Below are positions 11,801 through 35,900 of a stretch of 64,000 bases of DNA, piece by piece (positions within the stretch are counted from its first letter, which is position 1; each line of letters starts with the position of its first letter). The notes below the pieces were generated by a model that worked only from the letters and a program-made list of their open reading frames with translations, made no database searches and was not told the DNA's origin. Both the position numbers and the translations under genes were made by a program. The DNA comes from Labia minor (taxonomy: Eukaryota > Arthropoda > Insecta > Dermaptera > Spongiphoridae): assembly GCA_963082975.1 (NCBI GenBank), contig OY720344.1, forward strand, positions 15,921,580 to 15,985,579. Reading direction: 5' to 3'.

Positions 11801-12532
11801 TTATGTAGAGAAATGTCAAAACTATTGAATTTAATAGTTAGCGTTTAACGCTGATTAAAATACATACATGCAAGCACCTAATAAGTATATATTAATTAAT
11901 TGATCTTATTTTGGCCCATAATAATCAATGAAATAACCATATTAAAACTCACAAATTACCTTATTTACTTTTTACCATATCTTTTCATGATTGTTATAGG
12001 GTGAGAATACCGTTTTTCATAGATCATAAGTCATTCATTATAATAGCTATAATTAGCAAATAGTAAAAATGTAATTTTGTAATCTTTTTATATTAACACT
12101 GAAGACTTTTGTATGTTAAAATGTTTATACTCTTTATTATTATGATTATATTTTCTTACCTTTTAAGTTTTATTGTTTCCATAACAAAATTCCAATTTTT
12201 TTCATCTTTCAATTAAATATTTTTTACTTTTAACAAATTTCATTTAAGCTAAATAGTATAAAATAAAAAAATATATAGATATATATAAATATAAAAAAAA
12301 TGAAACGAAATATATAATCATTCCATTTATTTATCTGAAACAATAACATTTATTTTTAAGCTACTTAATCTAAATTTTAGTAAATTCTAGTGAAATTTAA
12401 TTATCAAACTAAAATCTGTCAGAAAAAAAACAATGTTTTTTCTATATCGTTTAAATCTTTATGTAATTATATGTTTATCATCAATTTGAATAATTTATGA
12501 ATATTATTTAATTAATATATTCATTATAATAT
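11801..12532. other. sequence 3' of the Or gene
   Basis: AT-rich; likely includes the Or 3' untranslated region on its right side. Several AATAAA/ATTAAA strings occur on the minus strand, none decisive. Confidence 0.4.
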
Positions 12533-12598
12533 TTATTCAACATCCATTTCATTGACGTTTTTTAATATCATGATATAACTGAAAGCCATTTGAACAAT
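12533..12598 (-). CDS. Or: Or exon 8 (residues 366-386 and stop)
   Basis: Acceptor TTTCAG, phase 0, ends in TAA. Encodes IVQMAFSYIMILKNVNEMD, the second half of TM7 including the conserved S-Y pair, and a short C-terminus. Confidence 0.88.
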   Translation of the reverse strand: MVQMAFSYIMILKNVNEMDVE

Positions 12599-15500
12599 CT
12601 GAAAATAATTATTAAAAAATTATGTAAAAAATTGTAAATTTATATTGGTAAGCATAACTAAATGGTTAAAGCCCGAAGGTAAATCACATCAAAAAAAAAT
12701 GATTATTAAAATTATTTTTACTTTATAATAAAATAAATGTACAAAAATAAAAAGTAATTTAATTTAATTTTTAAATATATTAATTATTTCAATATATTAA
12801 AAAAATTCGTTAGAAAAAAATAAAATTATTTCAAGGTATATATCTTATATATAATATATATATCCATCTTTAAATATTTTTTTTTACATCTAGCCCTATA
12901 TAGTTGAAAATTATATAATTAATTTAAAATTACGACAGAAATAAATGTATATAAATCTTCAAAATATATATATATATATAGGGTAAAGTATTTGTCGTTG
13001 GCCCCCTTAAGCAATTCCTAGCAGTCTTTAATGCATATCTGGGAATATTGCGGAACAATCTGTGTCAAATTAGGTTTGCAGAACAGATACTATGAGCATT
13101 TTGATGAATAAAAAAAAATCATTTTCTCATGACATTTTCAATAAGCATACAAAATTCTAAAAAATACTGTTATTGGCCCCCTGTTATAGTTATTGGCCTA
13201 GGTATTCTATAGTGATTATACAGTCTTACAACAAACGATAACATAACCATAGTTATAGCGCAATTTTTAAAATAAAAATCTCTTATTATTTGTGTTTTAG
13301 TGATAGGGGGCCAATGACTGCCTCCGGGCCAACGACTGTATACTTTACCGTAAATATATGAGATGAATTTGATTATTTATTTTTTTAAACTTTATAGATT
13401 TAGTAGCATGATTTATACAAATGACTAATAATATCATGATTTCCGCTATTTCCATAAAATCACTTAAATTATCTATTTGTTGACGATTTTATCCATTTAT
13501 ACGGATCAATGAAAAATACAAATATTGACATTAGTTCTTGCTAAACATGCATGCGACACTAAATAAATTCGTTCGGTTATTGATTATATTATCTGCTTGA
13601 ATTCGTACGTCTTACAGATTATCTATCTACCAGAGGTAATGCTTGTATTTAAAATTAAAATTAATAAATTGAATAAAATGCAGATTAAATTTTAGACAGA
13701 GTTGAATTTAAAAAGTTTCTCTCTACGGATATTTTTCGAAAATCATGCCCGGAAAAGATACATACCCCGATTAGATTGAATTATAGATACTTCAAAAAAT
13801 AAATGATTAATTTTTAAAATAAATTTTATATCTAAATATTTGATTAAATAGATTAAAAATAATTACATTAGAAAAGAATGTTATGGAAACTTAAAAAAAT
13901 ATTCGATTCAATGATGTCTAAAAATTTCATTCATTATTTATTAAATAATATTGAACATTTTTATTTAATAATATTTAAATTAATTATTTTAGAACAATTA
14001 ATAAGTATTAAATTGAAATAACAAAAATAATCATTAATTTAACTGATATTTTTTTAAAATTATTTATATACAAAATTAATCATTTGTAAATCAATAATTA
14101 TTTATTAATTAAAGATTAAATATTTGTTTAAAGACATTTTTATGACTTGACCCAGTTTCATCTAACTAATTTAACAGTGAACCAAAAAATAATAAAAAAA
14201 AAAATAGATTTTTATACCGATAAAAAATTCTCTCGATTCATAGTGATAAATGGGGTGGATTTAATAACAATTGAACGCTGACAACGATGTATAATCATTT
14301 GAAGAGCAAAGCACATGTCTTTGGAAATCGGTTCACTGTCGGAGGCCCAATCACTTAGATAGATTTCATTCGGCAGCTCCATACTCTACAAAAGATAAAT
14401 GAAGATGACATTTAAAATAAAAAAGGGCCTTTTTTCAAAAAAAAAGATCTAACAATAAATTAATAACTGATTAAAGTTTGAAAATAAAAATTATTAACTT
14501 AAATAATTTGATTTAATTTATTTAATTTAATTATTTACAAAATTGAATACACTATAATAAAATATTTAGTGAAATTAAGTAAATTGTGTGTATTCTTATT
14601 ACATGATTATATTATATTATGTTAATAAAAAAATACTTTGAATAAAAATAAAAAAAATATTATTTTAAATACCATGCGTTGTACTTCATCTGCGGCATTG
14701 AACGAGAGAAATAATTGAAATAAAAGTGTCAATATGTAAACAATTATTTTAAAATCATCCAGTTCCAAATTATTCAATTTCTAAAAAAAAATTAATAAAT
14801 TTTAAAATTCTTTTAGTTATTAATATAATTAATCAATAAATAAAAACTGAATTGTTCGTGCATTGTATTAACATATTTTTTGGCAAATATCGAATTTGAC
14901 ACCCTTTTTAGTTTTATATATAGTATGTTCTACTTAAAAAAATACGTTGACCAGTGGCCAGGTCCGAACCGACCGACGGTTTGAAATAAATTAATTTCCA
15001 GCTACAGAAACAATTTCAAATAATTTTAATATATCTATTAATGTAATTAAAAACAGATATCGAAATAACATAAATATTTTTAATTTTATTTTATTTATAA
15101 TATATATGTAAGACCAGGCTGTGACGTCATGAATGGCTGGATGACGTCATATAATTTTAAATTAAGAAAAAAACTAATAAAAATGATTTTTCTCGAGAAT
15201 AAAACCAATACAAAGTGCATGATTCGTGGTGATATATAAAAAAATCTCCTCATGTGAAATTTGGTGTGAAAATAACCCTTACCTTCCTATCGTCGATCGC
15301 TAATACTACCACTTCCGGTTTCCGGATTTGCACCAAAAGTTGATCAATTCATCCCACTGATGCATTAAGTAAATATACCAAATTTCATCAAAATCCGTGC
15401 AGCCATTCAGGCTGTACACATCTATACGGTCGGACGGACAGACGAACGGACGGACAGACATCATGCTAAAAATACTTTTTTCTGTTAAGAAAATGCATGA

Positions 15501-18500
15501 TTCGTGGAGATATGTAAAAATCTCCACATGTGAAATTTGGAGTGAAAACAATACCTCCCTTACTATCGCCGGTCGGTAATAATTTGTGAAATACTTAATT
15601 AATAAATATTTAATAACATTTATGTAATGTTATTATTATAAAAGGCTGTAATGAATTATGTGATTTTCAGAAAAGCAAAGAGAACTTTCAGGGGTTGGTT
15701 TGCATTTTTGAAATAACACCACTTTTCATTTTCTATAATCCAGCTGAGGGCTTCAATGGGGTCCTTGTCCTCTTTCTTGGTTTAACCTTCTCAGAGTTAA
15801 CAAGTGGAGCCTTATGGGATGACATTATTAATCAAGACAAGGTGCTTGACTATAATTTGGAATTAATTTTATTAAAAATGAATTTCTGAATAAAAGTCAA
15901 TCTTACTTTAGATTTACCATATAAAGGACTTATTTAATTGGTAGTATTATTTTGCTTTTCAATTTATTAAACAAATCCGATTACATCATTACAAATATTT
16001 CAATAATTAAATTTCCATTAGGTTTTATTGTTTTTTGCCACCAGGAATTTCTCTTTACTCAAATTATTCTCATACAACATTATTATAATTAATTCTTCGT
16101 TGTTCGAAATTCCTTGTTTATATTACTATTTTTGCTTTATTATATTTATTAAATTGTTTCTTTTGTTATATAAAATCAAACTCATTGTTTTATTATTTTA
16201 AAATCGGTCCAAAAGAGTTAAAATTTATTTTTCATTTTTTTGGATAAATTATTTTTATATCATTAATTTTTGTTAACGAGGTCCGATATCTTTATCCAGT
16301 CATAATTTTGCATTTTTTCATATTTTTAAATAAAATAACGCTGGCGACCTTCCACGGTCAAAATTTATTCATACTAATTTAATTTAGTATTATTTTATTT
16401 AATTTTCACCATTTTCTCCTCCCCCCTCCCATTTTCATTATTTTCACATGCGAGAGAACCCCTTTTAACTGTGATGGTCTGTGACTGTGACTCTTATTAT
16501 CTTATTCACATAAACGATGAAGGTGTTTGTTCTCAAAATTTCCTTTTGTTAACAATTATTTGTGGACCCACGCTCTTTCATACATATTAAATAAAATTTT
16601 TTTTTTTATTATTTTTATTTAATCACCTCTTTAAACTTTAAAGGGAAAATTATTATTCATCATTTTAGAGTGAAAATAATTAATAGAAAAATAAAAAGTT
16701 TTAAAATAAATCAGTAATTAAGTCATATTATGTAGATTAATAGGTATTCTAAATATGTATTTATTTCTTTATGTTCTGCTTTAAAAATTTGTAATTAAGT
16801 AAAATCCCCTCTTAAAGAAAAAATAAAATAATTAAAAAAACTGTATTATTATTATCATTACTTTAACTTTAAAAGAGATTTAATATTACTTACTTGAGTT
16901 AAAACAAATCCCATAAAACAAAGAATTATAACAAAAGAGCAACATTGGAAAAATACTTCATATTGAGCTACAGCTTCAACTTCTTGAGTCAATCTAAAAT
17001 AAAATAAATCGAATAAATTTATTATATAATTAATTTACTGTATTTATAAAGCATCATATTTAAAATACATTATGAGATATTTTCATTTGGAAAAATATTG
17101 TTTCCTTTTAAGCCGATAAAAATAAAATAATTATTTTATAAATACATATGTTTTATCACATTGAATTAATCAAATACTCACTTCATAATCCTTGTATGGT
17201 ATCTATAAATTTTTAATAAATTATTCCTGTTGAATTGCCGCATCAGCTTTCCTAATGTAATATAATGTTGTGCAAGTAACGATAGTATAGACATGAGTAA
17301 AGGGTCATAAGTCCCATGTAATAATCCTGTTCGCAACATGCAACTTGCCACACAACTGAACCACAAATAAAAAATCCATTTTGATGTAATTCTGCAAAAA
17401 TTGTTTTTATTTTTATTCGTATTAAAAGAAATATATCAAAAGAGCAAAGAAAAGGAGAAAAAATATAAAATATTGGATTGGATATATAGTACTAGACTTT
17501 TAGAGAATTAGCCCAAAAATAATATTTTAGTAATTTCATGGAAATAACAAATTATGCTTTTGAAAACAAAATACCATTCATAATATATTATTCTCTTTTT
17601 ATTTCTATTTTTTTATGTCTCTTGTTTCTATATATTTATAACATTAACAATGTTATTAAAAAATCATTTTCTTATTTTTTTTGTAACATAAAAGAGATAT
17701 TTAAAATATAAAGTTAAATTAAACATTTAAATATTAATTTAGTTAATTTAACATTAATTTAGTCGGCCACATGGAAAACGATCTATCATAACAGTCTGTA
17801 ATCCAATTTGCCAAGTGGATGACGATAGTTTGCTTTTTATGTGACAAGGTTGAAGCAATTTTGCATAAGACAACTGAAAGTCACAACGTCCAGGCGATAG
17901 AACGTTTTCTCTTCGTCGAAGTCGCACTCCGATGATTTTAAATTTTATTTAATTTATTATTTAGATAAAACAGTCTGGTGGACAACACTATTGAATTTTA
18001 TCTACGTGGTCTTCGGTTCAAGTACCAGGTTTGACAAGGAAATTTTTTTTCTACCTGGGGTTTATGGGAACGAGAGGTCTACACGAGGTCAAAATTGGGA
18101 AGTTACTTGAAATAAGAAGTAGCGGCCTCCGATCAATAAAATCAAGATAATGTTAAATGGATCCGTTATAGGATCATACAACACATCTACTCCGCTTAGG
18201 CAGTACCTTGATAGGCGCTAACCTTTGATGGGATATTCAAAACCCAGAGGTTTTTCTTGTATAAATATAAAAAAATTTATCATTTAAGAACCGCTCTTAA
18301 AAATAGTCATATCTAGATTTATTCTCATAAAGATATATAATCATATTTTAAAAGCTCGTTTTGTCTAAACTCATAACAGAAAATGTTCCAATAAGTATCA
18401 ACATATTTAGCCGTAAAAAGAAGTAAACAAAATAAATCTTCCATCAAACTAGGTTAACTATATTATCTGATTCAGGTAAACAATGAATGATTGTTTTTTT

Positions 18501-21500
18501 TATTTCATTCAGAGATGAAAGAAAAGTTTAATTATAAATGCAAATAAGAAAATTTATTACGCTTCTCATTCTATCCGTTATCATTTCAAAAGGAGCATGC
18601 CTTTAACTAAATTGATTCAAATAAAACATACAAAGTTTATAAAAACTTTGGTAATTAAGTTAAAAATTGTAAAAGTTTATAATTCTTTATTCATATAAAT
18701 TAATAATATTATCTTATTAACATTTTTTTTCTTTTTTTCAAAACAAAATATTTTTATTTCTTATGAGAAATTGTTCTAAAAACAAAAAAAAAAGTTTATA
18801 GTTTTAATAAATACAAAAGAGATATCATTTTACTCACTTTCCAGCACAATTTTAAAGAAATGCAATTGGAATTTTTTTAATTTCTTTGAATTATTTAAAC
18901 GAAATTGAAATTGAATAGAAAATTGTTGCAAATAGTTTAATCTTTATTACCGACCGACGATTTGAAGGGAAGGTATTGTTATATTACATTTTAAGTTAAC
19001 GAACTGAATTGTTTTGTGATAATAATAAATGCAAATTGCTCCCACATCCTCCATATTCCCCGGATTTAGCCCCGAGGGACTATTTCATGTTTCCAAACTT
19101 GAAGAAATGATTCCAACGATGAAATCATCTCATAAACAAATACCTATTTTGATATTCTCGACATATCTTATTTTTTGGAAGGGATAAAAAATTAGAAAAA
19201 CATTGACGAAGTGTATAGACCTCAAATGAGACTACGTTGAAAAATAAAATAATTTTTTATCAAAAAACCTGTCCTCGTATAACTAGGCTGGAAGGTTTAG
19301 GGGTGAGATGTATGTTTAAGTAAAACCAATAGGGAAACGACCAGAGAGTAAAAATATAAACAAATTAAGAGTATATTGGAAGTTATAGGATGGATAGAGA
19401 TGATTAAAGGAATGTTCAAGAACCGTAGGTAATTAATTTTACCTACCGACGTTAGGAAGGGAAAGTTTGTTTTCACAACAAATTTCACATCAAGAGATTT
19501 TTACATATCTCCACGAATCATGCATTTTGCCAACAGAAATTTTTTTTTAGCATGATGTCTGTACGTCCGTTGTGTGTTCGAATAGATATTATTTATTATT
19601 CAAAGATGGTAGTTGTCAAAATTCAAATTCAAGAAAAAATAATAAAATAATAAGAAAAGTTATCAATAATAAAGAAATTTAAAAACAAAATGAAAATGAA
19701 ATATTAAAATTTTTTTCATGGACAAGTAAAACAAAACAAAAAATGAGCTTTGGCCAGGATCAACGAATTTTGATAAAATTTGGTATATTTACTTAATGCA
19801 TCAGTAGCATGAATTCATCAACTTTTGGTATATATCCGTAAACCGGAAGTGGTAGTTTCTAAAGTAATGAATTAATTTTATATTCATTATATTTTTCACT
19901 TAAAATATAGTAATAATTAATAATTGAGTAATTAAACTAAAAATAAAACCAAGATAATATAATTTAGTTATTTTAATTTAAGTTTTAAAAATATTTTTTT
20001 TGATTCTTTATATATATAATGTTTGGAAATTTATTTATTTCCCATCGTCGGTCGGTTCTGTGCCTGGCCACAGCTCATTTTTTTGTTGTTTTACTTGTCT
20101 ATGAAAAAAATTTTCATATTTCATTTTCATTTTCTTTTTGAATTTCTTTATTATTGATAACTTTTCTTATTATTTTATTATTTTTTCTTTTTTTTTTGAA
20201 TTTGAATTTTGACAACTACCATCTTTGAATAATAAATAACCTAGTTAATTTTCTATCTCTTCCTCTATTGGTAAATATATGTTTCTATAATATGTTTACG
20301 ACCGCCTGGAAAGCTTCCCTTCTCGTTTGAATTTCAATAGAAAATCTAATCAAGTCTAATTCGATTATTGAACTTGTATCGGTACTAATAAGTCAGAATA
20401 GATGCCTATTCGGCTTGTAAGCTCCTTAAAAATATTTTCTAAATTAATTATTTGGAAAATAATAAATACGATCATTAATATTCAATTATAAATTAATTTA
20501 TTAATTAATTTCCTGGATTTATTGAAACTGACGGCTATTTCTATGAATGTTATGAAGCGTGTAGAACAAATTCTATTTCGAGCAGGATTCATTGACACAT
20601 TCAGTGACGCCACCAGGAGACACATGCATTTTGTTATGGAAATGCGTTGGTTTGATTGATTCTATACCTACCTATCAACACTTTACATCCCCCCTCCCCT
20701 CCCCCAACACCACCACTTCCACTCTCTTTTTTCACATTCAATTCAATTCAACTAAAATATCATGAAAATTAAATTCTGTAAACTAATAATAATTAATTAT
20801 AATTATACATTTAAATAGATTTCAAGATTATTTTATAATAAATAATTTTTATTTTCATTTATTTAAAAACAAAAACTCTCACGATAGCTAAAAAACCATT
20901 ACATTGTAACTTTACAATACTATCGTGGAACAAGTATCTATCTTTAACTACCTCGGTGTACAAATAACAAGTATCAAGAACATTAACGAAGAAGTCAGAC
21001 TTCAAACTATAAAGGCGTCTGCTATATCTGGATGCCTAAACGATACGGTGTGGTCGAACAAGTTTCTGGGTACAACAAACAAAAGTCCGCATCTATAAGA
21101 GCGTGGTGAGGCCAATACTAACATACGCGGCCGATAAAAGAAGTGACACCACCAAAACATTAGAAATGATGGAAGTCTGCGAAATGAAATCATTGAGAAG
21201 AATTGTGGGTAAGACAAGAATGGACAGAATTAAGAATGAAGATATCAGGGAGAAGTGTAAGATTCAAAAAGCTAGTTCTTGGGTCCAAAGAAGGAGGACA
21301 GAGTGGAGTAAACACGTATTAAGAATGAATGAGGAACGGTTGGTGAGGAAAATACATGACAACGTTCCTGCAGGAAAGTGAAGTCGTGGTCGACCAAGAA
21401 AGAGGTGGAAAGACGCTCTGGATTGAACAGGTCCTAGATTGATTTATAAGAATAATATTATTCTAAATAATTTTTTTTTTATATAATTCTGAAATTAATG

Positions 21501-24500
21501 TTTGGATGTTAATTTAATGTCACCTTGATATATGTACAATATTTTATACTATTATCCACTCACTTAAGTGGCATCCAAGTGGTGATAGGAAACTGGCCAA
21601 GAAATCCCTCAATTTCTATGTTTTGCTCAATCATTGCTTCTTCATCAGGCCAAAGAAGAGCCCCAAGAAACCAAGTGGTTCCACTTGTAATTCCAAATGG
21701 TAATAATATTCGTTGTATTTGCTTGATTGATTTGTTTCGTTTTTCAAAATCAGTAAAATAATTTTTAGCATACAAATCACCAATTTCTTCATTTGTTTCC
21801 AAAATTAAATTAAATTTTTTCACAGAGTTTAATACAAGAATATGCTAAAAAAAAATCGAAATTTGTATATTTCAATATATTTATATTACCATTAATAATT
21901 ATAATTACTTTAATGAAAGCATGAAAATAAGATACAGCTGATATCATATTGATAGCTATTTTTTCTAGTTCAGTATCAGAAGTGATGATGAAAATAAAAT
22001 CTTGTAGAAATAGAAGAAAAAATAAAATAATAAAAAATACCTAAAAGAAAAAATATCATATTATTTTGAATGAAATAATTAAAATTAAAAAAATGGGCAA
22101 CACTTATATATATACATATAAATTATATATATATATATATATATATACTATTTTATAATACTCATTTTCATTTCGTTCATTTAAAATTCCTTATTTAAAA
22201 CAAAAATATATTATTAATAATTTTCTTATACTTTCTATTTTATTTTGATTTACCAGATTTTCATAAAAAATTTTATATATAATTACTGACCTAAATTTAT
22301 CATTCTACTAACAAAAAATCACCTTCAAGTTTGTCAAGATTTTCAATTGTTTTTCTCTCAGGTCAGTTCTAATTGAAGAAGTTTTAAGGAGTCTTTAGTC
22401 TGTCTTTTGGAGTGTCTGGTTGTTTGACTTTATTCTTTTGTCTGTTTTTGTTCTTTTTACTGAATTTTTATCAACTAATTGTTTAATCATTTCACTTGAG
22501 GAACTCGATACAGATATGAGGAAATCGCTGTACAAATTAAAAAGATCTGGAATCTAGAAACAGTAAAAATACTCCTATTGTGATATCAGCTGAGGAGTAA
22601 TGTAAATAAGTTGACCTGTGGCCAGGTCCGAACCGACCGACGGTTTGAAATAAATTAATTTCCAGCTACAGAAACAATTTCAAATAATTTTAATATATCT
22701 ATTAATGTAATAAAAAACAGATATGGATATAACATAAATATTTTTAATTTTATTTTATTTATAATATATAGCTGAAGTAGCCGGCGTTGCCGGCGTTACC
22801 CGAGGCTGTGATGTCATGAAGGGCTGGGTGACGTCATATAATTTTAAATTAAGAAAAACATAATGAAGATGATTTTTCCCGAGGATAAAACCAATACATT
22901 CGTGGTGATATGTAAAAAAATCTCCTTATGTGAAATTTGGTGCGAAAATAACCCTTCCCTTCTTATCGTCGATCGCTAATACTACCACTTCCGGTTTCCG
23001 GATTTGCACCAAAAGTTGATCAATTCATCCCACTGATGCATTAAGTAAATATACCAAATTTCATCAAAATCCGTTCAGCCGTTCAGGCTGTACACATCTA
23101 TACGGACGGACGGACGGACAGACGGACAGACGGACGGACGGACGGACATCATGCTAAAAATACTTTTTTCTGTTAAGAAAATGCATGATTCGTGGAGATA
23201 TGTAAAAATCTCCACATGTGAAATTTGGTGTGAAAACAATACCTCCCTTACTATCGTCGGTCGGTAAAAAGACTTACCAAAATAATTGAGAAACTGGATT
23301 TGCCACAAAAAATTATAAGAACAGGTCAAAAAGCAATTTTACTACAGTCCTGTCATATTTTTAGAAAGTTCCTCAATTAAAAATTAAAATTTTAAAAAAA
23401 ATATTATTATCGAAGCGCTTACGGATTAGGGTGAATTCCTTCTTTGTATCGCCCGAGGTTAGCCCAAAACCAGATCAACAGGGTAGGAAAATTTTACCGA
23501 CATACCATGCCGAGAAAGTGACACAACTGATAATAATTATAATATAATAATATAGAATAAATTGTAATTTAGAAATTTATTAAAGAGAATTAAAATCGAG
23601 TGCAGACTGATTCAGCCTGTTAGGAAAAGTGAAATTAAATGAAAAATATCTTTGATTTAAAAATTTATTTATTTAAAAAAAGACAATTTTAAAAATAAAA
23701 TAATCTCAAAAAATTTTTTATATTATAAAAGCTGTTATAGTTATCTAGAATCCGTTAAAATAATTTAATGTATTTTTCCATTTTCTCAAAAATGAATTTG
23801 GAGAAAAAAATGTTTCTAAAAAAATCTTGAGTGTCTCCACTGGACTATCTCGCAAATAGGAATTGGATAATGAAGCTTTTTTTTCTATATTTGAAAATTA
23901 ATTAAAATTTTATTCTATCCCATCACAGAATTTAAAGTTTTTAACATAATTTTCACTTATAACATTTTATTGAAATAAGAAGACTTTGGTTTAATACTAT
24001 ATTTTTGCGAGTTGCGCAAATTTATGAAATAGCATTTGTTTTCAACTACTTAACTGCATTTAACTTTTATCATAGTTTTGATAATAATTAAATACATTAC
24101 CATGTACTCGACGGGACCGTAGCAATTGATGTACCCAATACATTTCTTATATAGGATGTTCGATTTGTATAAAAATACATATATTTATATGGATAATGCG
24201 ATTTGAATATGTGTTAAACAGGGATATATTTCAGCGCATGTTTGGCTCTTTGTTGATGACACCACGAAACTTGACAGTCAACGTATTAAAAAACTTAAAA
24301 AATTAATTTCGGTACTTTCAGCGATTCAATCAAGCTGAAATTATATATATAGCAGTTTTATACAATTTTTAATAATGTGAAAAACTATCAAACATATATC
24401 TTTATATTTACGGTCAGTTAAGTGGAATCAAAATGAAGACGTGATTCCGAATGAGCTATATTTCTCAAAAGTTGATAGAAAACTACGAATTTTAAATAAT

Positions 24501-25530
24501 GCCCGTTTACCAAATTTCATTCTAGCACAAACCTTTTTTGCGTAATCTTGTCTACATACACATACACAGACCTTAGTGAAAATGACTCTGGGACCTTCAA
24601 AACGTATAAAAACATCAAAATCTCGACATCGAAAATTTTTGTAATAGCGATACTATTATATCTGGCGAGATAGTAAAAAAAAACTAGTCGTTTGAACTTT
24701 TTTTTGACTTTATCAAAAATTTACTTACAAATAGGTATCTCAAATTTGGGTAAAAGATATTTAATTTAATTAATTTTTTCAGTTTATATACCCTAAAATA
24801 TATTTTGAAATATTTAATTTAATATATTATAAATATTAAAAATGATCAGTCCATGGGGTGGGCATCTATTAAATAACGCCACTGGTTGCCTTTAAAACGC
24901 GAATGACATCCAAACAAGTTATCACCGAAATGTTTTTCTTGAGATTTCTACATAAATCACTCCTATAGTATATTATTTCTTAATTCACTCTTCGTAATGA
25001 ATGGCACTGTAAATTCAATCATTTGTCAATTAAAGAAATGTCGAAAAAATAATAATATATTACCCTTTTAAAATTAGCTGGAGTGTCTCCACTCGACTAT
25101 CTCGCAATTTGAATTGGATTAAATAACATAATATATTATATTTAAATTAAATTTAATTAATTATAAATAATAAATAATAAATATTAAACCAGCGCATGTT
25201 TGGCTTTTTGTTGATGGCACCACGTCACGTGTTGGCGCGTGAGATTTGCAGTGTTAGAAAAATTAATTCTGGTAATTTCAGCGAATCAATCAAGCTGAAA
25301 TTCTATATATAGCAGTTTTATACAATTATTAATCATGTGAAAAATTATCAAACATATATCTTTATTTTTACTGTCACTTTAGAGGAAAAAAAATCCAAAC
25401 GTTGTAGGTAATGACCCTCTTCCGGTTGAGCTACATTTCTCAAAAGTTGATAGAAAACTATGAATTTTGAATAATGTCCATGTACCAAATTTCACCATTC
25501 TAGCTCAAACCGTTTTTGCGTAATCTTGCC

Positions 25531-25600
<70 letters not shown>

Positions 25601-26330
25601 TTTTTCTCAACCTTAGTGAAAATGATTCAGGAACCTTCAAAACGTATAAAAACATCAAAATCTCAACATCGAAAATTTTCGTGATCGCAATACTATCTCT
25701 GGCGAGATAGTAAAAATGATATTCATATTCTGATGAATGATAATAATAAAAATTGAAAAATATTTTTTAAGAAACATCTACATCTACAATTTTTTTTCTA
25801 TCGATTTCGTAGTTTTTCATTTATTTTTATAAGACTGTTTTTATTTGATCTTTTGTTTCAAATTCCTTTCTCTCAATTGTTTTTATGCAGTCTTTACATG
25901 TGAAAATCGCATGTCGATAATTCGATTAGCCTGAGCACGAAAGAGGAGGATCATGGGCAGATCGAGAAGATCGTTTTTTTCACTATTCATGTCAAGTGGA
26001 CTCGTAAAATCCTCTAATTACTATTTAATGTGTTGAATCACACATATAAATATATTTTCCAACAATTTCCAATGCTCAACCATTAAAATTTTGCAACTAT
26101 TTAATTTAAACTTGGATTTTAAAATTATTTATAATTATCATTCACATTCCCATTATTTATCAATTTATATTTAATAAGGATTTTTAAATAAAAATTTTAA
26201 TATAAAAATGTATAATTAAGAATTAAAAATTTACCGGATATATATAAAATAATCTGTCCTTGTTTTTCGGCAGAAGACCGAGCCAGGTAAGCTCCTTAAC
26301 CATCTCACGAACATCAGCATATAATTTCAT
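12533..26330 (-). CDS. Or: insect odorant receptor (7tm_6), complete 8-exon gene
   Basis: Ligand-binding subunit of the heteromeric odorant-gated cation channel in olfactory neuron membranes; partners with Orco. Exons, in transcription order: 26330-26235, 22040-21909, 21844-21564, 17391-17182, 16993-16894, 14780-14673, 14385-14218, 12598-12533; all junctions are GT-AG and the phases join into 386 codons without a stop, a typical family length. An in-frame TAA lies 5 codons before the ATG. Hydrophobic segments lie near residues 33-52, 62-82, 122-142, 175-220, 254-273, 283-300 and 356-379. Family landmarks: N-terminal WLGLLP (16-21), GTYDPLLMSILSLLAQHY (196-213), YLSDW (318-322), and the TM7 signature TPFITMNRENFLS plus MAFSYIMIL. 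AATAAA (12532-12537) overlaps the stop codon, so the true poly(A) site may be further on. Specific receptor subtype and ligand cannot be assigned. Splice sites were chosen by eye. Confidence 0.9.
12981..13350. mobile_element. MITE with TA target duplication
   Basis: 370 bp bounded by inverted repeats GGGTAAAGTATTTGTCGTTG (12981-13000) and CAACGACTGTATACTTTACC (13330-13349), continuing into GGCCC. Flanked by TA on both sides. The arms extend into subterminal copies of TTATTGGCCCCCTG and GGGGGCCAATGAC, so the whole unit can fold. TA duplication points to the Tc1-mariner-pogo group. Lies in Or intron 7. Confidence 0.83.
13351..14217. other. remainder of Or intron 7
   Basis: AT-rich intron with no recognised element. 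Confidence 0.5.
14218..14385 (-). CDS. Or: Or exon 7 (residues 310-365)
   Basis: Acceptor TTGTAG, donor GTATAA, phase 0 both sides. Encodes the YLSDW motif, the QMIIHRCQRS segment and TPFITMNRENFLS, the beginning of the TM7 signature. Confidence 0.9.
14673..14780 (-). CDS. Or: Or exon 6 (residues 274-309)
   Basis: Acceptor TTTTAG, donor GTATTT, phase 0 both sides. Encodes TM6 (YILTLLFQLFLSFNAADEV), equivalent to the variable Q-LF-x-C/N-x-G segment of other receptors. Confidence 0.82.
14947..15579 (+). mobile_element. repeat family A, copy A1 (Helentron/HINE-like candidate)
   Basis: Starts with a stem-loop GACCAGTGGCCAGGTC, then AACCGACCGACGGT; ends CGCCGGTCGGTAA, so short subterminal inverted repeats bracket the unit with the stem-loop outside one of them. 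The core holds ACCAAATTTCATCAAAATCC, then a GGAC/GGACA microsatellite at 15429-15460. This layout matches HINE/DINE-type non-autonomous Helentrons read from the opposite strand. Other copies: 22612-23266, 27063-27533, 19442-20087 (inverted), 58693-58911 (partial). Lies in Or intron 5. Confidence 0.72.
15590..16590 (+). repeat. 1-kb dispersed repeat B, copy 1
   Basis: Matches 37870-38905 in inverted orientation along its whole length (for example CAGAAAAGCAAAGAGAACTT, TTTACCATATAAAGGACTTA and the TTTCCTTYTGTTAAC region). Contains a 64-codon open frame at 15695-15889 not conserved as a frame in the other copy. Superfamily unknown; no clear terminal repeats. Confidence 0.75.
16894..16993 (-). 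CDS. Or: Or exon 5 (residues 240-273)
   Basis: Acceptor TTTTAG, donor GTAAGT, phase 2 to 0. Encodes TM5 with VEAVAQYEVFFQCC and CFMGFVLTQ, which aligns by eye with the family pattern before TM6. Confidence 0.88.
17182..17391 (-). CDS. Or: Or exon 4 (residues 170-239)
   Basis: Acceptor TTGCAG, donor GTGAGT, phase 2 at both ends. Encodes TM4 and the YDPLLMSILSLLAQHYITLG segment, one of the best conserved stretches of the receptor family. Confidence 0.9.
17392..17974. other. left part of Or intron 3
   Basis: AT-rich; 17760-17940 is less AT-rich (AACGTTTTCTCTTCGTCGAA) but shows no coding frame or terminal repeats. Confidence 0.4.
17975..18262 (+). mobile_element. tRNA-derived SINE, copy 2
   Basis: Shares CTACCTGGGGTTTATGGGAA-like, TCAAAATTGGGAAGTTACTT and GGCCTCCGATCAATAAAATC segments in order with the 9648-9955 copy, in opposite orientation. 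The B-box region reads GGTTCAAGTACCAGG. More diverged than copy 1; the 5' tRNA part is shortened. Confidence 0.65.
18946..18983 (-). repeat. family A terminus, isolated
   Basis: TTACCGACCGACGATTTGAA then GGGAAGGTATTGTT: the subterminal end of family A without its body; sequence switches immediately after. Confidence 0.6.
19030..19290 (+). pseudogene. mariner transposase C-terminal relic (family M2)
   Basis: Broken plus-strand frame with [17 protein letters not shown] and YFLEGIKN, followed by a terminal CCTGTCCTCGTATA. Same family as 54119-54644 and 62484-62940. The N-terminal two thirds are missing. Confidence 0.8.
19442..20087 (-). mobile_element. repeat family A, copy A4, rearranged with a foldback insert
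   Basis: Minus-oriented family A: subterminal repeat at 19446, the region complementary to GCATGATTCGTGGAGATATG, the core with ACCGGAAGTGGTAGT (19844-19858), then CGTCGGTCGGTTCTG and the terminal GCCTGGCCACAGCTC stem region. At the microsatellite it is split by a ~170-bp segment (19589-19758) that is the inverted copy of 20063-20239, sequence spanning the element's own end and its flank. Confidence 0.68.
19589..20239. repeat. long inverted repeat, ~170-bp arms, ~300-bp loop
   Basis: 19589-19758 and 20063-20239 are reverse complements at roughly 95% by eye (AAGATGGTAGTTGTCAAAAT against ATTTTGACAACTACCATCTT; GACAAGTAAAACAAAACAAA against a near match). Could form a strong hairpin in DNA or in Or pre-mRNA. 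Confidence 0.85.
20935..21430 (+). pseudogene. LINE 3' relic, second family
   Basis: Frames with stops give VSIFNYLGVQITSIKNINEE, PILTYAADKRSDTTKTLEMM, MKSLRRIVGKTRMDRIKNED and HVLRMNEERL...GRPRKRWKDAL, the order found after the RT domain of APE-type LINEs. Lies 130 bp from Or exon 3. Confidence 0.82.
21564..21844 (-). CDS. Or: Or exon 3 (residues 77-170)
   Basis: Acceptor TTTTAG, donor GTGAGT, phase 0 to phase 2. Encodes LPFGITSGTTWFLGALLW (TM3 region) and FPITTWMPLK, typical of the second extracellular loop. This is the longest exon and an open frame on its own. Confidence 0.88.
21909..22040 (-). CDS. Or: Or exon 2 (residues 33-76)
   Basis: Acceptor TTTTAG, donor GTAATT, phase 0 on both sides. 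Encodes the first hydrophobic helix and SYFHAFIK. A second donor 19 bp downstream (AATG|GTAATA) was considered, but it would put exon 3 out of frame. Confidence 0.78.
22041..22611. other. left part of Or intron 1
   Basis: AT-rich with (TA)n at 22118-22147; no element recognised. Confidence 0.5.
22612..23266 (+). mobile_element. repeat family A, copy A2 (best preserved)
   Basis: TTGACCTGTGGCCAGGTCCG forms a GACCTG/CAGGTC stem-loop, followed by AACCGACCGACGG; the other end is ATCGTCGGTCGGTAA. Microsatellite of GGAC/GGACA units at 23104-23149. Carries an extra GC-rich 36-bp piece (GCCGGCGTTGCCGGCGTT, about 22780-22800) absent from A1. Confidence 0.75.
23267..23827. other. Or intron 1, unclassified
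   Basis: A moderately complex stretch at 23405-23620 (CGAAGCGCTTACGGATTAGG, GTGCAGACTGATTCAGCC) looks like old repeat but no copy was noticed elsewhere in the window. Confidence 0.35.
23828..24676 (+). mobile_element. repeat family C, copy C1 (Helentron/HINE-like candidate)
   Basis: Begins GAGTGTCTCCACTGGACTAT, ends TCTGGCGAGATAGTA: short subterminal inverted repeat ACTATCTCGC/GCGAGATAGT. Interior holds the shared TGAAATTMTATATATAGCAG block, CAAAAGTTGATAGAAAACTA and a short CA-type repeat. Longer than C2 because of an inserted segment around 23880-24190. Confidence 0.65.
25076..25713 (+). mobile_element. repeat family C, copy C2 (complete)
   Basis: AGCTGGAGTGTCTCCACTCG carries a TGGAG-TGT-CTCCA stem-loop outside the subterminal repeat ACTATCTCGC; the other end is CTCTGGCGAGATAGTA. 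The core ends in a (CA)n array (25540-25596). Same plan as family A with a different sequence. Confidence 0.72.
25540..25596. repeat. (CA)n microsatellite inside C2
   Basis: About 28 uninterrupted CA units following CTACATACATA; C1 and C4 have only a few units at the same place, so the array expanded within this copy. Confidence 0.95.
26235..26330 (-). CDS. Or: Or exon 1 (residues 1-32)
   Basis: Starts with ATG at 26330, preceded in frame by TAA, and ends before donor GTAAAT in phase 0. Encodes the short cytoplasmic N-terminus with the WLGLLP motif seen in many insect odorant receptors. Confidence 0.82.
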
Positions 26331-26720
26331 CTTGATCAATAAATTAAATTAACTTTTCCTGTATTTTGTCGATGGCTTTTATACCTACCCAAAATAAATT
26401 CATTCTTATTATTTAATACGATTTTAATATTGGATTTGTAATCAAAATGATTGAATTCATTATTACTTGCTAATAATTTATACTATAATTTGATCTCGTT
26501 TACCTATTGACTATTCAATAAAAATTTCACTCTTAAAATACATACATTATTTATTTATTTGTTATTTATATATACATAGAACACATCTGTTATGTAAAAA
26601 AAAATTCTTAAATATTTTAATATTTATTGATATTAACTGATATGTGTAAAACATACACAATTTTTAGTTAGATTGAAATTAAAATTTATTTTTTTACTAT
26701 TTACTAAGATAATAATAATA

Positions 26721-27060
26721 AGCTGGAGTGTCTCCACTCGACTATCTCGCAATTTGAATTGGTTTAAATAACATATATTATATTTAAATTAAATTTAATT
26801 AATTATAAATTATAAATTAAAATTAATAAATAATATTTATTAAATCAGAGCATGATTGGCTCTTTGTTGATGGCACCACGTCACGTGTTTGCGCGTGATT
26901 TGCAGAGTTAAAAAATTAATTCAGGTATTTTCAGCGATTAAATCAAACTGAAATTCTATATATAGCAGTTTTATACTATTTTTAATCATATGGAAAACTA
27001 TCAAACATATATCTTTTATTTTTACGGTCATATATTTACGGTCATTCTGGCAAGTTAGTA
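26721..27060 (+). mobile_element. repeat family C, copy C3 (internally deleted)
   Basis: Same start (AGCTGGAGTGTCTCCACTCG) and an end decayed to TCTGGCAAGTTAGTA; the part with the CA array is missing. Directly abuts family A copy A5. Confidence 0.68.
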
Positions 27061-27062
27061 AA

Positions 27063-27533
27063 AATGAGCTGTAGTCAGGCACAGAACCGACCGACTGTTT
27101 GAAATAAATTAATTTCCAAACTACATTATATATATAAAGTATAAAAAAAAAATTAAAACTTGAATTAAAATGACTAAATTATATTATATTGGTTTTAATT
27201 TTCTAGTTTAATTACTCAATTATTAATTAATACTATATTTTAATTGAAAAATTTCCGAAAATTTACTTTATAAACTATCACTTCCGGTTTCCGGATATAT
27301 ACTTAAAGTTGATGAATTCATGCTACTGATGCATTAAATAAATATACCAAATTTTATCAAAATCCGTTGAGCCGTTCAAGCTATACACACAATGGACAAA
27401 CGGACAGACGGACAAACATCATGATAAAAATACTTTTCCTGTGAATAAAATGCATGATTCGTGGAGGTATTAAAAAAACTCAACATGTGAAATTTGGTGT
27501 GAAAACAACTGCCCTTCCTATCGTCGATTGGTA
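27063..27533 (+). mobile_element. repeat family A, copy A5
   Basis: Starts GAGCTGTAGTCAGGCACAGA then ACCGACCGACTGTTTG; ends TATCGTCGATTGGTA. Microsatellite reduced to about five GGACA-type units at 27394-27418. Its 5' half matches A4 better than A1/A2, suggesting subfamilies. Confidence 0.68.
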
Positions 27534-27539
27534 AAAATA

Positions 27540-28990
27540 TAAGTATTAAATATTAAGTATAAAAATATCTTGATCTATATAAAATTATAATAAATTTCTT
27601 TATAGGGATTTTTTTTTAGGAATATTTTTTTAAAATTAATTCCAGATGATTGGTTTCCATTTATTATTATCATCAGTATGTCTGAGTAGAAATATACTAT
27701 ATGGTAGTATCAACTTCTTAACTCAAATGCTTATGAGCTGTTAAAAGCTTTCTTTGAACCTCAAGCACTTCAAAGGAGTTGAAAATTTTCAACCTTTCCA
27801 TGTTGGTCCATACCCAATTAGTACATCCTAAACCTTATCAAACTCGATGTAAGGTAAAAACAGAAAAATATCATCAAAGGACATACTACGAAATATGTTT
27901 GTATAATATACTTTTGTTTATTTACCCCTCCTCTCCCCCCCCACTCGCCACACTGTTCTAACTTTTTAAATATAAATATTCTATTTATTTAGTTATTTTT
28001 GGACCAACCAACTTATAAAATAAGAATGAAAGTTTGTCTTTAATATAATTGGATTTTTAATTTATTTATTAACTCTTATTTATTTAATCATTCTTCTAAA
28101 CACAATACATTTGATGAGAAATTGTCAAGAACGTAATGATTAAAAATGATTCTTAAATATTTTATTATATAAATGTCAATTTTCTTAAATTTTTGAAATT
28201 ATTTTTTTTATTAAAACGATTAATTATGAAAAGATCGATCAAGTTAAGTTTAAGAAATTGACCAATTGAATAATTGAATTCGTGAGTAAAATAAACTTTT
28301 ATTCTATTCTTTTCTTAATTTTATAATGAAATATATATTTATATTTATAAAATATCAAAGTCATTATTTTTAGGTTACAGATTATTATAATGATATCAAA
28401 GTTTAATGATATGAATGTTAAATGTATGTATTTTCTTAATATATTTAAAAATATTAAATAATAATAATAATAATAATATTTTTAATTTATTATAAATTAT
28501 GTACACACGTCAGTTTATATTTATTTATTTATTTATTTTTATTAATTTATTTGAATTTACCGATGAAGTCGGGTAAAGTGTGATCGATGATGTGTAAACA
28601 GGATGTTAATGAAATATAATAAATTATCGCTTCCGGATTTGGATATTGAACAATACATTTTCAGCAAGTGACATAGAAATAATAAATTCGAGTTGTTCAT
28701 TTTAAAGGGATCTAATTAGAGACTGTGCTAGGGTAAAGGAGAGATGGGAGTAAATGTAAAGTGTCTAAGTAAACTCATATAACCAACTCATATATCATAT
28801 CCATATCCATATTTATAGTTTGTCGAGGGTTCTTTAAGCAAAGTGAGACATATTCCAATTGGAAAATTATTAATTTATGTGCTCGTATGTATTTTAGTAG
28901 AATATGGTAATATTATATTACAATATGATACTTATTACAAATATAATTATTTTTAGTTTAGAGTGCAATTAGTTCAGGGTAGTGATTAAA
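27540..28990. other. AT-rich gap between Or start and mariner
   Basis: No exon recognised. A 60-codon frame at 27779-27961 has no recognisable motif and no splice context. 28556-28760 is less AT-rich without a pattern. Confidence 0.4.
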
Positions 28991-28991
28991 A

Positions 28992-29796
28992 TGAGGTCTT
29001 TTCAAAAGAAAAGGTGAATTTTTAATTTTCGCGGGTTTTGTTCATTTGATTATCGATTTTTTTTTGTTATGTTGGTACACATATGTTTCTTATATGTTGA
29101 CATTATCAGCCATTTTCGATTAGTAGTTTGTTTTTGACAATTGAAAAAGTTAGTCACGTTTTTGTGTGTTTTTCGATTTTTTACTTTAAAAAAAAATGGA
29201 TTTAAGAATCTGTTTTAAATTTTGGGTTAAAAATGGAATAAAATGCTCCAATACACTTAAAATGTTGACTGTGGCATTCGGAGAGTCTACTTTGCCTCAA
29301 AAAATGTTTATAATGATACAAGCTCTTTACAGAAGGCCGAGAAGTTCGAACAAATATGAAGGTTTTGCTCACTGTTTTCTTCGATTATAAAGGCGTGGTG
29401 GATCATGAGTTCTTGATAACAGGTTAATAAGGAATACTACAAGGAAGTTATGCAAAGTTTGCGTGAAGCAATACGGGTCAAATGATCGGAAAATAAATCA
29501 TGGATTCTGCATCATAATAATGCACCAGATCACTCATCATTGCTTGTTCGTGATTTTTTGGCCAAAAACAACACCATAAACATGCCTCAACCACCGTATT
29601 CACCAGATTAGGCTCCCTGCGATTTTTTTCTATTAATAAAACTGAAAAGACCAGATTTGATAAGAGAGAAATTCGGAATCGAAGAACGAGCTGATGACCA
29701 TACTGAAAAGCGCATTTCAGAAATGCTGGCATTGATGAATAAATAAATACTTTTCGAAATAATTCAATATTCACCTTTTCTTTTGAACAAACCTCG
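28992..29796 (+). mobile_element. internally deleted mariner (family M3), copy 1
   Basis: Inverted termini TGAGGTCTTTTCAAAAGAAA (28992-29011) and TTTCTTTTGAACAAACCTCG (29777-29796), TA on the right. Begins MDLRICFKFWVKNGIK, an N-terminal mariner pattern, passes through [14 protein letters not shown] and, after a deletion, VFFDYKGVVDHEF, LHHNNAPDHSSLLV and QPPYSPD*APCDFF. The helix-turn-helix and first catalytic D are lost; stops present. Confidence 0.87.
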
Positions 29797-31198: not shown

Positions 31199-32060
31199 AG
31201 GGTGTTTCTTTTAGAGGTATAGAACTTTACATTGCAATAAAACAAAGATGGATTATTCGATTGATATGAATTTTATTTATAAGAAAGATAATCTTGTGGC
31301 ATTACATTTTTTATATGATTTCTGGCATATGACCGACACGGCTGGCTCGGATATAGTCCAATCTGGACTTCCTATTTTCGATAAATTTTTCCAACATTTG
31401 TGGCCGTATATCGGCAATAACACAGCGAATGTTGTCTTCCAAATGGTCAAGCGTTTGTGGCTTATCCGCATAGACCAATGACTTTACATAGCCCTACAGA
31501 AAGTAGTCTAGCGGTGTTAAATCACAAGATCTTGGAGGCCAATTCACAGGTCCAAAACGTGAAATTAGGTGGTCTGTGTGACATGTTCCGCCGTCTTGTT
31601 GGAACCACAGCTCCTGAACATCATGGTTGTTCAATTCAGGAATGAAAAAGTTAGTAATCATGGCTCTATACCGATCACCATTGACTATTCGGGTCTTCCT
31701 AAATGCTACGCTCTACAGTAGCAATAGCTTCTTCTGTACGCACCGTACGGCGTCTCTGGGGATGCGAGTTATCAATAAGAGTAAACGTGGTGCGAAAACG
31801 TTCCATGGTTAATCTAATTAACTGCTCTGATGGACGATCTTGTCGACGATAAAATGGACGTAGTGCACGATACGTATTTCGCACAGAACCATTATGTTCG
31901 AAATAAAATTGCACTATTTGCAAGTGTTGTTCAGACGTGAGTCTATTCATGATGAATTGCCAAACCAAACTGAGAATAAATCACTTGACAGCTGTTAAAT
32001 CAGTCGCCAACTTGAACAGTAAAGCCAACTTAAAGTTCTATACCTATTTTCCACAAATAA
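31199..32060 (-). mobile_element. deleted IS630/Tc1-mariner-type transposon
   Basis: Minus-strand frame 31968-31699 encodes MNRLTSEQHLQIVQFYFEHN, a helix-turn-helix N-terminus; after an internal deletion a broken frame gives YRAMITNFFIPELNNHDVQE, LWFQQDGGTCHT, FGPVNWPPRSCDLTPLDYFL and YVKSLVYADKPQTLDHLEDN. The second and third DDE Asp survive, the first is deleted. Termini share GGTATAGAACTTTA in inverted orientation (31215-31228 and 32031-32044). Confidence 0.87.
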
Positions 32061-32326: not shown

Positions 32327-32753
32327 TATTATTGAAAATGATGAGATTGGATTCCTCGATTTAAAGATCGGTGGGACAGGCCTCTAACCATTTGTGTAAT
32401 ATTTTAAAGACAATATTAGTTATTTTTTTTTTAATAAATGAGTTTTTTAAAAAAAACAACGATCATTTATATATATATTGTTTCTCATTAATTATTTAAT
32501 TCATGTTACTTTTCAATTTTTGGCAAAAAATAATACTAATTTAAATATTGAATATATAATATATTTTAAATATATTTTTTTTATTTTTCAATTCAATTCA
32601 ATTTGATTTTTTATTTTTGTATATATCTATAATATATTTTTATCACACAATAAAATATAGATTTAAATAAATTCATTACGTGTTTTCTTTAATTTATTTA
32701 AATATAAACTTTTTTATTAATAAATATATATATATATATTTTTATTTTCGCAG

Positions 32754-32918
32754 GATCCTCGTTTCGATGACCAGGTGGATCGGGTTACTGGTTACCATAC
32801 CGATTCTCTACTCTGCATGCCAGTTCGCAATGCATACGACGAAATTATTGCTGTAGCCCAAGTTGTCAATAAAAACCCGGACGTCGATGGAGGCCAATTT
32901 ACGATAAAAGATGAGAAA
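32754..32918 (+). CDS. Pde6: Pde6 exon a: GAF-A middle (in-window residues 1-55)
   Basis: Acceptor TTCGCAG, donor GTATGT, phase 0. Encodes [20 protein letters not shown] and CMPVRN, then NK..F..KDE, the NKFDE-type element of a cyclic-nucleotide-binding GAF domain. The preceding exon must encode the first half of GAF-A. Confidence 0.93.
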
Positions 32919-35900
32919 GTATGTATTTTTTTTTTATTTATTTTAAAAGAAAAATTTTTGTATTTCCATGTCCAATGATATGCATTATTATATGAATTAT
33001 TTGAATAATTTCTATGCGTAACTCTTGAATATAATAATAATAGTTATTAAATCAAAAAACTCATTCAAAATTAATTTATAATATAATTTTTTTATATTTT
33101 CATATTTTTGTAATAATTTATGTGAGTATCTAATAATAAAAAAATCTGGAGTGTCTCCACTCGACTATCTCGCAAATTTGAATTGGATTAAATAACATAT
33201 TAATTTAAATTAAATTAAATTAATTAAATTATAAATTAAAATTAATAAATAATATGTATTAAACCAGCGCATGTTTGGCTCTTTGTTGATGGCGCGTGAT
33301 TTGCAATGTTAAAAAATTCCGGTACTTTCAGCAATTCAATCAAGCTGAAATTCTATATATAGAAGTTTTATACAATTTTTAATCATGTGATAAACTATCA
33401 AACATATATCTTTATTTTTACGGTCAGTTTAGAGGAAAAAAAAATTATAACGTTGTAGGTAATGACCCTCTTCCAGTTGAGCTACATTTCTCAAAAGTTG
33501 ATAGAAAACTATGAATTTTGAATAATGCCCATCATTCTAGCTCAAACCGTTTTTGCGTAATCTTGGTTACATCCATACACACACACATACATTTTTCTCA
33601 ATCTTGGTGAAAATGATTCAGGAACCTTCAAAACGTATAAAAACATCATAATCTCGACATCGACAATTTTCGTGACCGCAATACTAACTTTGGCGAGATA
33701 GTAAATATTGAAATACACATGTGGCTAGAATGGATGAAGATAGAATGGCGAAAAATATATTGGTAGGGAGACCGAGTGAGAAACGTCCACTTGGAAGACC
33801 AAGGACACGGTGGGTGGATAATGTGGGAAAGGACGTGAGAGAGATGGAAGAGGATATGGACTGGAGGGTTGTGGCTCAGAATAGGAATACTTGGAGGGGT
33901 GTGGTTGCTGCAGCCAAGAACTTTCGAGTTCCGAAGAGCCACAGAGATAGATAGATATTGAAATACACATCCAATACTATTACTACTAAAAATAATTTAA
34001 TATTTTTCTTTATTTTAGACATAATAAGGGGTAAATTAACTCTTTCTTAAGTTTAGTTGTGTATCTTGTTTTCAAAATAAGTTTTCTTATTTCATTCTTT
34101 TTCTTATCAACTTAAATATTAATATTATTGTTTAAGGAATTTAGAGAACGTTGGGGGGATGAAGATTGAAGAATCCAGTAAGCTTATCAAATGAATTAAT
34201 TTCGAAACAAAACATTTACTAAAGTTTAACTAAACGATGAGTCTAATATTTAACATTGTTTAATTTAATTCCAAACGCATGTCTGTCTGTGTATCTATCT
34301 ATTTATATAATATGTATATGTGTGAGTTTGTTTTGGTCAATCTGAATGGAAATAGAACACTTGGAGATTTAATTGAATGCTAGACACTCGTCCTTTTTAC
34401 TCTCTCCTTCTAAATTCAATCCAATAAATACTTTCTATTTGCATCTGCTGTTCAGTTTCGTTTATTAATTTCAGTAACATTTTTTCAATAAAGAGGGAAA
34501 TGCTTATGAATTGTTTCTCATTTTGGAGAGATCCAATATCAAATATCCATTCAATCCATTTCATTAAATCAAATCAACAGGTTAATAATGTCACGTTTTA
34601 TAATATAAATAGTTCATTGAATCATTTCTATCAACGTATGTACATATAATATTGATATTCATATTATTTAATAAATCCAAATTTCCTCCAGATCTGATAC
34701 AACTCTAATTTTAATTGATTAATGGAGATTAAAATGTTTTTGATTAAATTAATTAACATAATATATTATCTTCGAAAAATTTTGGAATATTTTAGGGAGT
34801 TCATTAGGGTATCTTAAAATTTTTATTATTTATTTAAAATATTCGAGAAGAATTTAAATCGCAAATGGCTGTTATCATGCAGTAAAGGGGCTTAAACTAT
34901 TATCAAAGAGAATCACAATTGAAATATATAAAATAATTATATTTTGCCGGTTGAATTTTATGGGTGTGAGGCATGGTCAATGACCCTGGAGGACGAGAAT
35001 AGATTTAGAGTATTTGAGAATAGGGTTATTCGCAGCATTTATGGGCCAATGAAAGATGAGGTCACCGGAGAATGGCTGAGACTGTATTACGAGAAATTGC
35101 ATGACCTCTATGCACCTCCAGACATAGTTAGGGCTATAAAATCGAGAAGGCTACGATGGGCAGGTCATGTGGCTAGAATGTTATGGAAGAAGAAAGAATG
35201 GCGAAAAATATATTGAGAGAGAGATTGGGAAACATCTGCTTGAAAGACCAAAGACGTAGATAATGTAGGAAGGGGCGTGAGAGAGATAGAAGAGGGTAAG
35301 AGTTGGATGGTTGTTGGAGGGATACTTGGAGAAATATGGTTGCTGCGGCCAAGAACTTTCTAGTTCCGTAAAGCCACAAAGAAAGATAGATAGATAAATT
35401 ATTTATTTAAACTTTCAAAATTTAGGCACAGATTGTTTGATAAAGACACGTTGGAAAATTATAAATGTATTTACTATGACTAATCAATAAATATTGAACG
35501 TTCACACACTATCGTCGAATTTTATTTTGATCGAATTTTTTAAAGTTCATTTCTCCATGAGAGCATTTGAAAATGGAATTCGAAGAGAGAAAAATAAAAT
35601 ACGGAATCGCAGTATGAATTTTCCATTCCAACCCAAACGATCAACGTCAAAGAATCTATTTCCCTTTTATTAAGGAATGTAAATGTAAATGTAAATGCTC
35701 ACTAAAGTAATATTTTACTTTTACATATATATTTTTCATATTTAAAGCAAATTTGATTTATAATAATTTTCCAAATTTTCATTAGAATTTTTATAATAAA
35801 TTTTATTATTTCTTTTAATAAATTAAATTGTCTTTGGATATAATTTATTAAAAAAAATTCAATAATAAAAAAACATTTAAATGATATTAATGAATATTTT

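Follow-up and report, generated by a model that had tools for sequence, protein, structure and literature searches.

An apparently intact odorant receptor gene of eight short exons in the genome of Labia minor

Structure of the gene

The window analysed here, the whole stretch of 64,000 nucleotides of Labia minor DNA, carries on its minus strand a gene that very probably belongs to the insect odorant receptor (OR) family, along with repeat copies in its introns and, at higher coordinates, pieces of a possible phosphodiesterase gene and sequences related to mobile elements. Splicing of eight exons between positions 26330 and 12533 of the minus strand yields a joined coding sequence of 1161 nt, which opens with ATG, runs over 386 codons and closes with TAA. 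All seven introns have the form GT...AG, and the start, the stop, the frame and all 14 splice dinucleotides are intact. The exon borders were chosen by eye, guided by reading frame, splice signals and the general appearance of the protein; intron phases played no part in the choice. The initial annotation had likewise described eight minus-strand exons with GT-AG borders joining to 386 codons with ATG and stop. It gave the span and these counts without listing the exons, and the choice of borders made here arrived at an identical span, likewise with eight exons and 386 codons. Its statement that no exon is long also stands, since none of the 18 stop-to-stop open reading frames of at least 100 amino acids contains an exon. 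The GC content is 26.8%, and at such a composition short open pieces near GT and AG are common; frame and splice sites alone are therefore weak proof of a gene. The gene model consists of the following features.

26376..26383, minus strand: TATAAAAG, possible TATA box, starting 53 bases before the ATG (candidate promoter element only)
26235..26330, minus strand: exon 1, 96 nt, ATG and N-terminus (32 aa) with LGLLP
22041..26234, minus strand: intron 1, 4194 nt, phase 0, three repeat copies
21909..22040, minus strand: exon 2, 132 nt, hydrophobic stretch where TM1 would lie, and beginning of TM2
21845..21908, minus strand: intron 2, 64 nt, phase 0
21564..21844, minus strand: exon 3, 281 nt
17392..21563, minus strand: intron 3, 4172 nt, phase 2, reverse transcriptase-like fragment and repeats
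17182..17391, minus strand: exon 4, 210 nt, TM4 region
16994..17181, minus strand: intron 4, 188 nt, phase 2, first of the four ancestral OR introns as judged by phase
16894..16993, minus strand: exon 5, 100 nt, TM5
14781..16893, minus strand: intron 5, 2113 nt, phase 0, two repeat copies
14673..14780, minus strand: exon 6, 108 nt, TM6
14386..14672, minus strand: intron 6, 287 nt, phase 0
14218..14385, minus strand: exon 7, 168 nt, conserved C-terminal stretch ahead of TM7
12599..14217, minus strand: intron 7, 1619 nt, phase 0
12533..12598, minus strand: exon 8, 66 nt, end of TM7 and TAA stop

The phases of introns 1 to 7 are 0, 0, 2, 2, 0, 0 and 0, so that introns 4-7, which lead into four short exons from exon 5 onward, have the phases 2-0-0-0. 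Repeats are expected within the long introns of OR genes. In excerpts from Brand et al. (PMC6080948), the phases 2-0-0-0 of the last four introns are described as ancestral to insect ORs, and OR genes as having four short C-terminal exons and long introns, with 14 to 43 kb given for firebrat genes on single scaffolds. The agreement of introns 4-7 with the ancestral pattern is one of phases rather than of aligned intron positions; it was noted after the splicing of the exons had been fixed, and would arise by chance in about 1 of 81 cases if the phases were equally frequent. Small exons and long introns are thus already known for the OR family, and the surprise implied by the initial annotation is overstated.

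Family assignment and support for the exons

The joined protein matches the Pfam family 7tm_6 (PF02949), the check proposed with the initial annotation, at 80.3 bits (E 1.8e-22; gathering score 25.8), and the match extends over residues 63-371 and over positions 8-313 of the 313 positions of the profile. Among solved structures, the best match is the OR10 chain of the OR10-Orco complex (PDB 8v00 chain D; E 5.2e-9, 39 bits). The next seven PDB chains, which are 463-495 aa long, follow with E-values of 1.5e-6 to 9.3e-4 and at most 30.9 bits; six of them are named Orco or co-receptor, and the remaining one, 6c70, is named only 'Odorant receptor' and is taken by us to be Orco as well. The OR10 of 8v00 is named as Aedes aegypti OR10 in the relevant part of a review (PMC13207653). 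It aligns with the C-terminal residues 226-380 of the window protein and is similar in length (375 against 386 aa), but the N-terminal stretch aligns at 2.3 bits, and OR10 is regarded here as a distant relative only, without a claim of orthology.

A further profile was built, with the window protein left out, from three solved OR/Orco chains, of which only the C-terminal portions were used. Against this profile the joined protein scores 63.3 bits (E 1.3e-18), and the best of 800 decoys scores 7.1 bits. Half of the decoys were random in-phase chains of eight GT-AG pieces from the window (400, with introns of 50-1500 bases, i.e., below the longest of this gene, and with neither start nor stop required) and the other half were shuffles of the protein (400). 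When the same profile was run over 2273 six-frame pieces of the window, exons 7, 5 and 6 took ranks one to three (E 0.00016, 0.057 and 0.11, respectively), and exon 8 was absent among the best 12 of these pieces. The match to the 7tm_6 family is far beyond chance. What the gene has in common with this family is the near-complete profile match and the series 2-0-0-0 of intron phases ahead of four short C-terminal exons. No feature at odds with the family was found, and three extra introns (phases 0, 0 and 2) cut the N-terminal part. In a Kyte-Doolittle hydropathy plot eight peaks exceed 1.2, seven of which were assigned to TM1-TM7; the extra peak at residues 201-219 adjoins TM4 and was counted, as a matter of judgement, as part of the TM4 region.

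When the exons were scanned singly with Pfam, one of the eight matched 7tm_6, namely exon 7 (E 8.6e-5, 22.2 bits, under the gathering score), and for this reason the contribution of each exon was scored by leaving it out of the joined protein. From 80.3 bits, the 7tm_6 score falls to 62.9 without exon 4, 48.1 without exon 5, 49.5 without exon 6 and 40.6 without exon 7, a loss of 17-40 bits for each, and to 76.7 without exon 3 and 73.8 without exon 8, a loss of 4-7 bits. Removal of exon 1 or exon 2 raises it, to 83.2 and 85.5 bits, respectively. On the basis of these scores exons 4-7 of the predicted gene can be regarded as firm and exons 3 and 8 as supported, and exons 1 and 2 are without Pfam support.

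Intron repeats and surroundings

When positions 12301-27500 were compared with the whole window by blastn (E up to 1e-8), at least eight stretches, distributed over introns 1, 3 and 5, proved to have a repeat partner in it; some of these stretches were merged from neighbouring pieces. This count agrees with the earlier statement that the introns hold at least six mobile elements, their mobility itself being presumed.

25717-25069: repeat in intron 1
24679-23817: repeat in intron 1, two matched pieces with an unmatched middle
23270-22604: repeat in intron 1
20239-19428: repeat in intron 3, in several pieces, part of it paired with itself in inverted orientation
19275-19028: repeat in intron 3
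18184-18089: repeat in intron 3
16593-15580: repeat in intron 5
15582-14940: repeat in intron 5
21040-21381, plus strand: fragment in intron 3 that by eye resembles the end of a reverse transcriptase; a Pfam scan of it gave nothing significant

One dispersed family is represented by the copies at 22604-23270, 14940-15582, 27060-27560 and 19428-20239, all within 13 kb, and by a partial copy at 58673-58915. Its two long copies have, by eye, inverted ACCGACCG-like ends, and the family looks like a non-autonomous DNA transposon. A (TG)n microsatellite lies on the minus strand at 25542-25601, inside the intron 1 copy at 25717-25069, and the sister copy at 24679 is by eye without a long run of this kind. 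With gaps excluded, the copies of one family in introns 1 and 5 show 32 differences over 632 sites, or about 2.5% per copy. For the other repeat of intron 5, comparison with the partner at 37869-38899 gives 179 differences over 962 sites, or about 9% per copy, along with 27 gap runs. In a three-way comparison of 241 columns, which include the ends beyond the element, six changes are peculiar to the intron 5 copy, 14 to the intron 1 copy and six to the copy at 58673-58915. On the assumption that copies were identical at the time of insertion, the subsequent change in the introns amounts to about 2.5% to 9%.

Beyond the OR gene, the window contains the following features.

29190-29390, plus strand: weak match to the Mos1-type domain HTH_48 (E 0.048, under the gathering score)
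31494-31980, minus strand: helix-turn-helix DUF4817 (E 1.5e-11), then a transposase-like piece recognized by eye, with no Pfam match
32724-32978, plus strand: GAF-domain piece (Pfam E 2.2e-4, under the gathering score)
41394-43673, minus strand: 759-aa stop-to-stop frame with a reverse transcriptase domain (RVT_1, E 1.8e-40)
50414-50764, plus strand: GAF-domain piece (Pfam E 0.074, under the gathering score)
51988-52484, minus strand: two overlapping frames that encode successive segments of a DDE_1 transposase (E 8.2e-7 and 3e-12), frameshifted
55346-55681, plus strand: GAF-domain piece (Pfam E 9.9e-6, above the gathering score)

In the PDB, the GAF piece at 55346-55681 matches cGMP phosphodiesterases, among them PDE6, PDE5 and PDE2A, with E-values from 5.2e-9, and the three pieces may perhaps belong to one phosphodiesterase gene with long introns, spread over 20 kb and arranged head-to-head with the OR gene. 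The RVT_1 frame, which is long and open, is presumably that of a LINE-like element, the DDE_1 frames are presumably derived from a pogo/Tigger-like element, and the sequences at 31494-31980 and 29190-29390 are perhaps remains of mariner-like elements. A tRNA scan returned no genes and an Rfam scan no families at gathering scores. Viral contigs scanned with the OR protein and with the reverse transcriptase reading frame gave no confirmed relative.

Tandem paralogues of the receptor were considered and rejected, there being no significant tblastn, phmmer or profile match outside the exons in the window. The best tblastn match of the protein outside the exons has an E-value of 1.5. Over the 2273 six-frame pieces of at least 18 aa, the best matches of phmmer and of a small profile of the C-terminal region, built with the window protein among its members, again outside the exons, have E-values of 0.14 and 0.72, respectively; such a search could miss very divergent ORs or pieces shorter than 18 aa.

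Nature of the receptor and alternative readings

With high confidence we regard the gene as intact and as coding for an ordinary member of the 7tm_6 family, a ligand-specific ('tuning') insect odorant receptor, the role of a tuning receptor being assigned by homology to this family. The part of the model most exposed to doubt is its 5' end, since exons 1 and 2 add nothing to the 7tm_6 score and the 10 kb upstream of exon 2 hold 49 candidate first exons of phase 0 and at least 20 codons. The 3' exons might be right and exon 1, perhaps together with exon 2, wrong, with the true first exon at another place, or translation might start at the second in-frame ATG at 26303, a possible alternative start. 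A G-h-h-P motif is usual near the N-termini of ORs, and among the 49 candidates it occurs, as LGLLP, only in exon 1, which accounts for two rows through its two ATGs. A donor from the set of common donors is likewise found in just five of the 49 rows, two of which are again exon 1, and TATAAAAG, which occurs 15 times on both strands across the window and would thus be met with a chance of about 1% per 100 bases, lies 53 bases upstream of the ATG. The choice of exon 1, a prediction from sequence, rests on the N-terminal motif, the donor and TATAAAAG. The strongest hydrophobic peak of the protein, at residues 33-51, falls within exon 2 at the place of TM1, and residues 30-145 align weakly with Apis Orco (13.1 bits). 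In view of these observations a wrong 5' end seems unlikely, and it is in other respects compatible with an intact tuning receptor.

Less likely still is a recently silenced pseudogene, in which the frame would be open and the gene not expressed or not functional. How much an open frame tells depends on the divergence assumed: in neutral simulations without indels (4000 each), the frame stayed open in 20% of copies at 2% divergence and 11% at 3%, values at which a silenced gene could pass as intact, and, at 5% and 9%, in 2.3% and 0.15%, respectively. The addition of one indel for every ten substitutions lowered the open share to 3.3%, 0.4%, 0.08% and 0% at 2, 3, 5 and 9%, respectively; the simulations assume AT-rich mutation and 80% frameshifting indels. 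If the older intron 5 repeat is used as a clock, a frame under neutrality would have stayed open with a probability of about 0.15% or less, provided that the two repeat copies were alike at insertion. The open frame thus speaks for constraint as long as the older repeat can be trusted as a clock, and does not decide the matter with the younger repeat alone. The start, the stop, all 14 splice dinucleotides and the frame are against a pseudogene as well, and bear out the initial annotation in its view that the gene appears intact despite the elements in its introns. Extremely improbable is a further alternative, in which the protein would not be a tuning OR but Orco or a gustatory receptor. Orco chains are among the PDB matches, and the fold is common to gustatory and odorant receptors, as stated in part of a 2026 review (PMC13207653), but OR10 outscores all other chains (39 against at most 30.9 bits), the protein of 386 aa is shorter than the seven other PDB chains, and by eye the translation is without TKKQ, given in an excerpt of Brand et al. 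(PMC6080948) as an Orco motif in intracellular loop 2. The Pfam match is moreover to 7tm_6 and not to the gustatory family 7tm_7 (PF08395), for which the full protein gave no match at E up to 1; one of the eight leave-one-out versions, that without exon 2, matched 7tm_7 at E 0.061.

For an intact tuning receptor, the most likely role, as suggested by its family, is that of a ligand-tuning OR subunit working with Orco. In the portion of the 2026 review that deals with the complex (PMC13207653), one tuning OR and three Orco subunits surround the pore, the odorant pocket lies within S2-S6 of the tuning OR, and odorant binding is followed by outward movement of its S7b helix. By analogy with its family, the Labia minor receptor would be expressed in olfactory neurons, would assemble with Orco, mostly as one OR with three Orco, and would bind its odorant in a pocket within S2-S6, upon which the S7b helix, probably coded across exons 7-8, would move and open a cation channel. 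Repeats have entered the introns of the gene and have left its exons unbroken. Doubtful is the further scenario of a divergent tuning OR, alone in the window and from a poorly sampled insect lineage, in which selection for a specific ligand preserved the receptor while the introns filled with mobile elements.

The gene model opens no new question, and adds one usable member to a large known family. It shows that raw DNA can yield, by way of frame, splice sites and intron phase, an OR gene whose exons are short and whose introns are rich in repeats; in our view, automatic annotation may break such genes apart.
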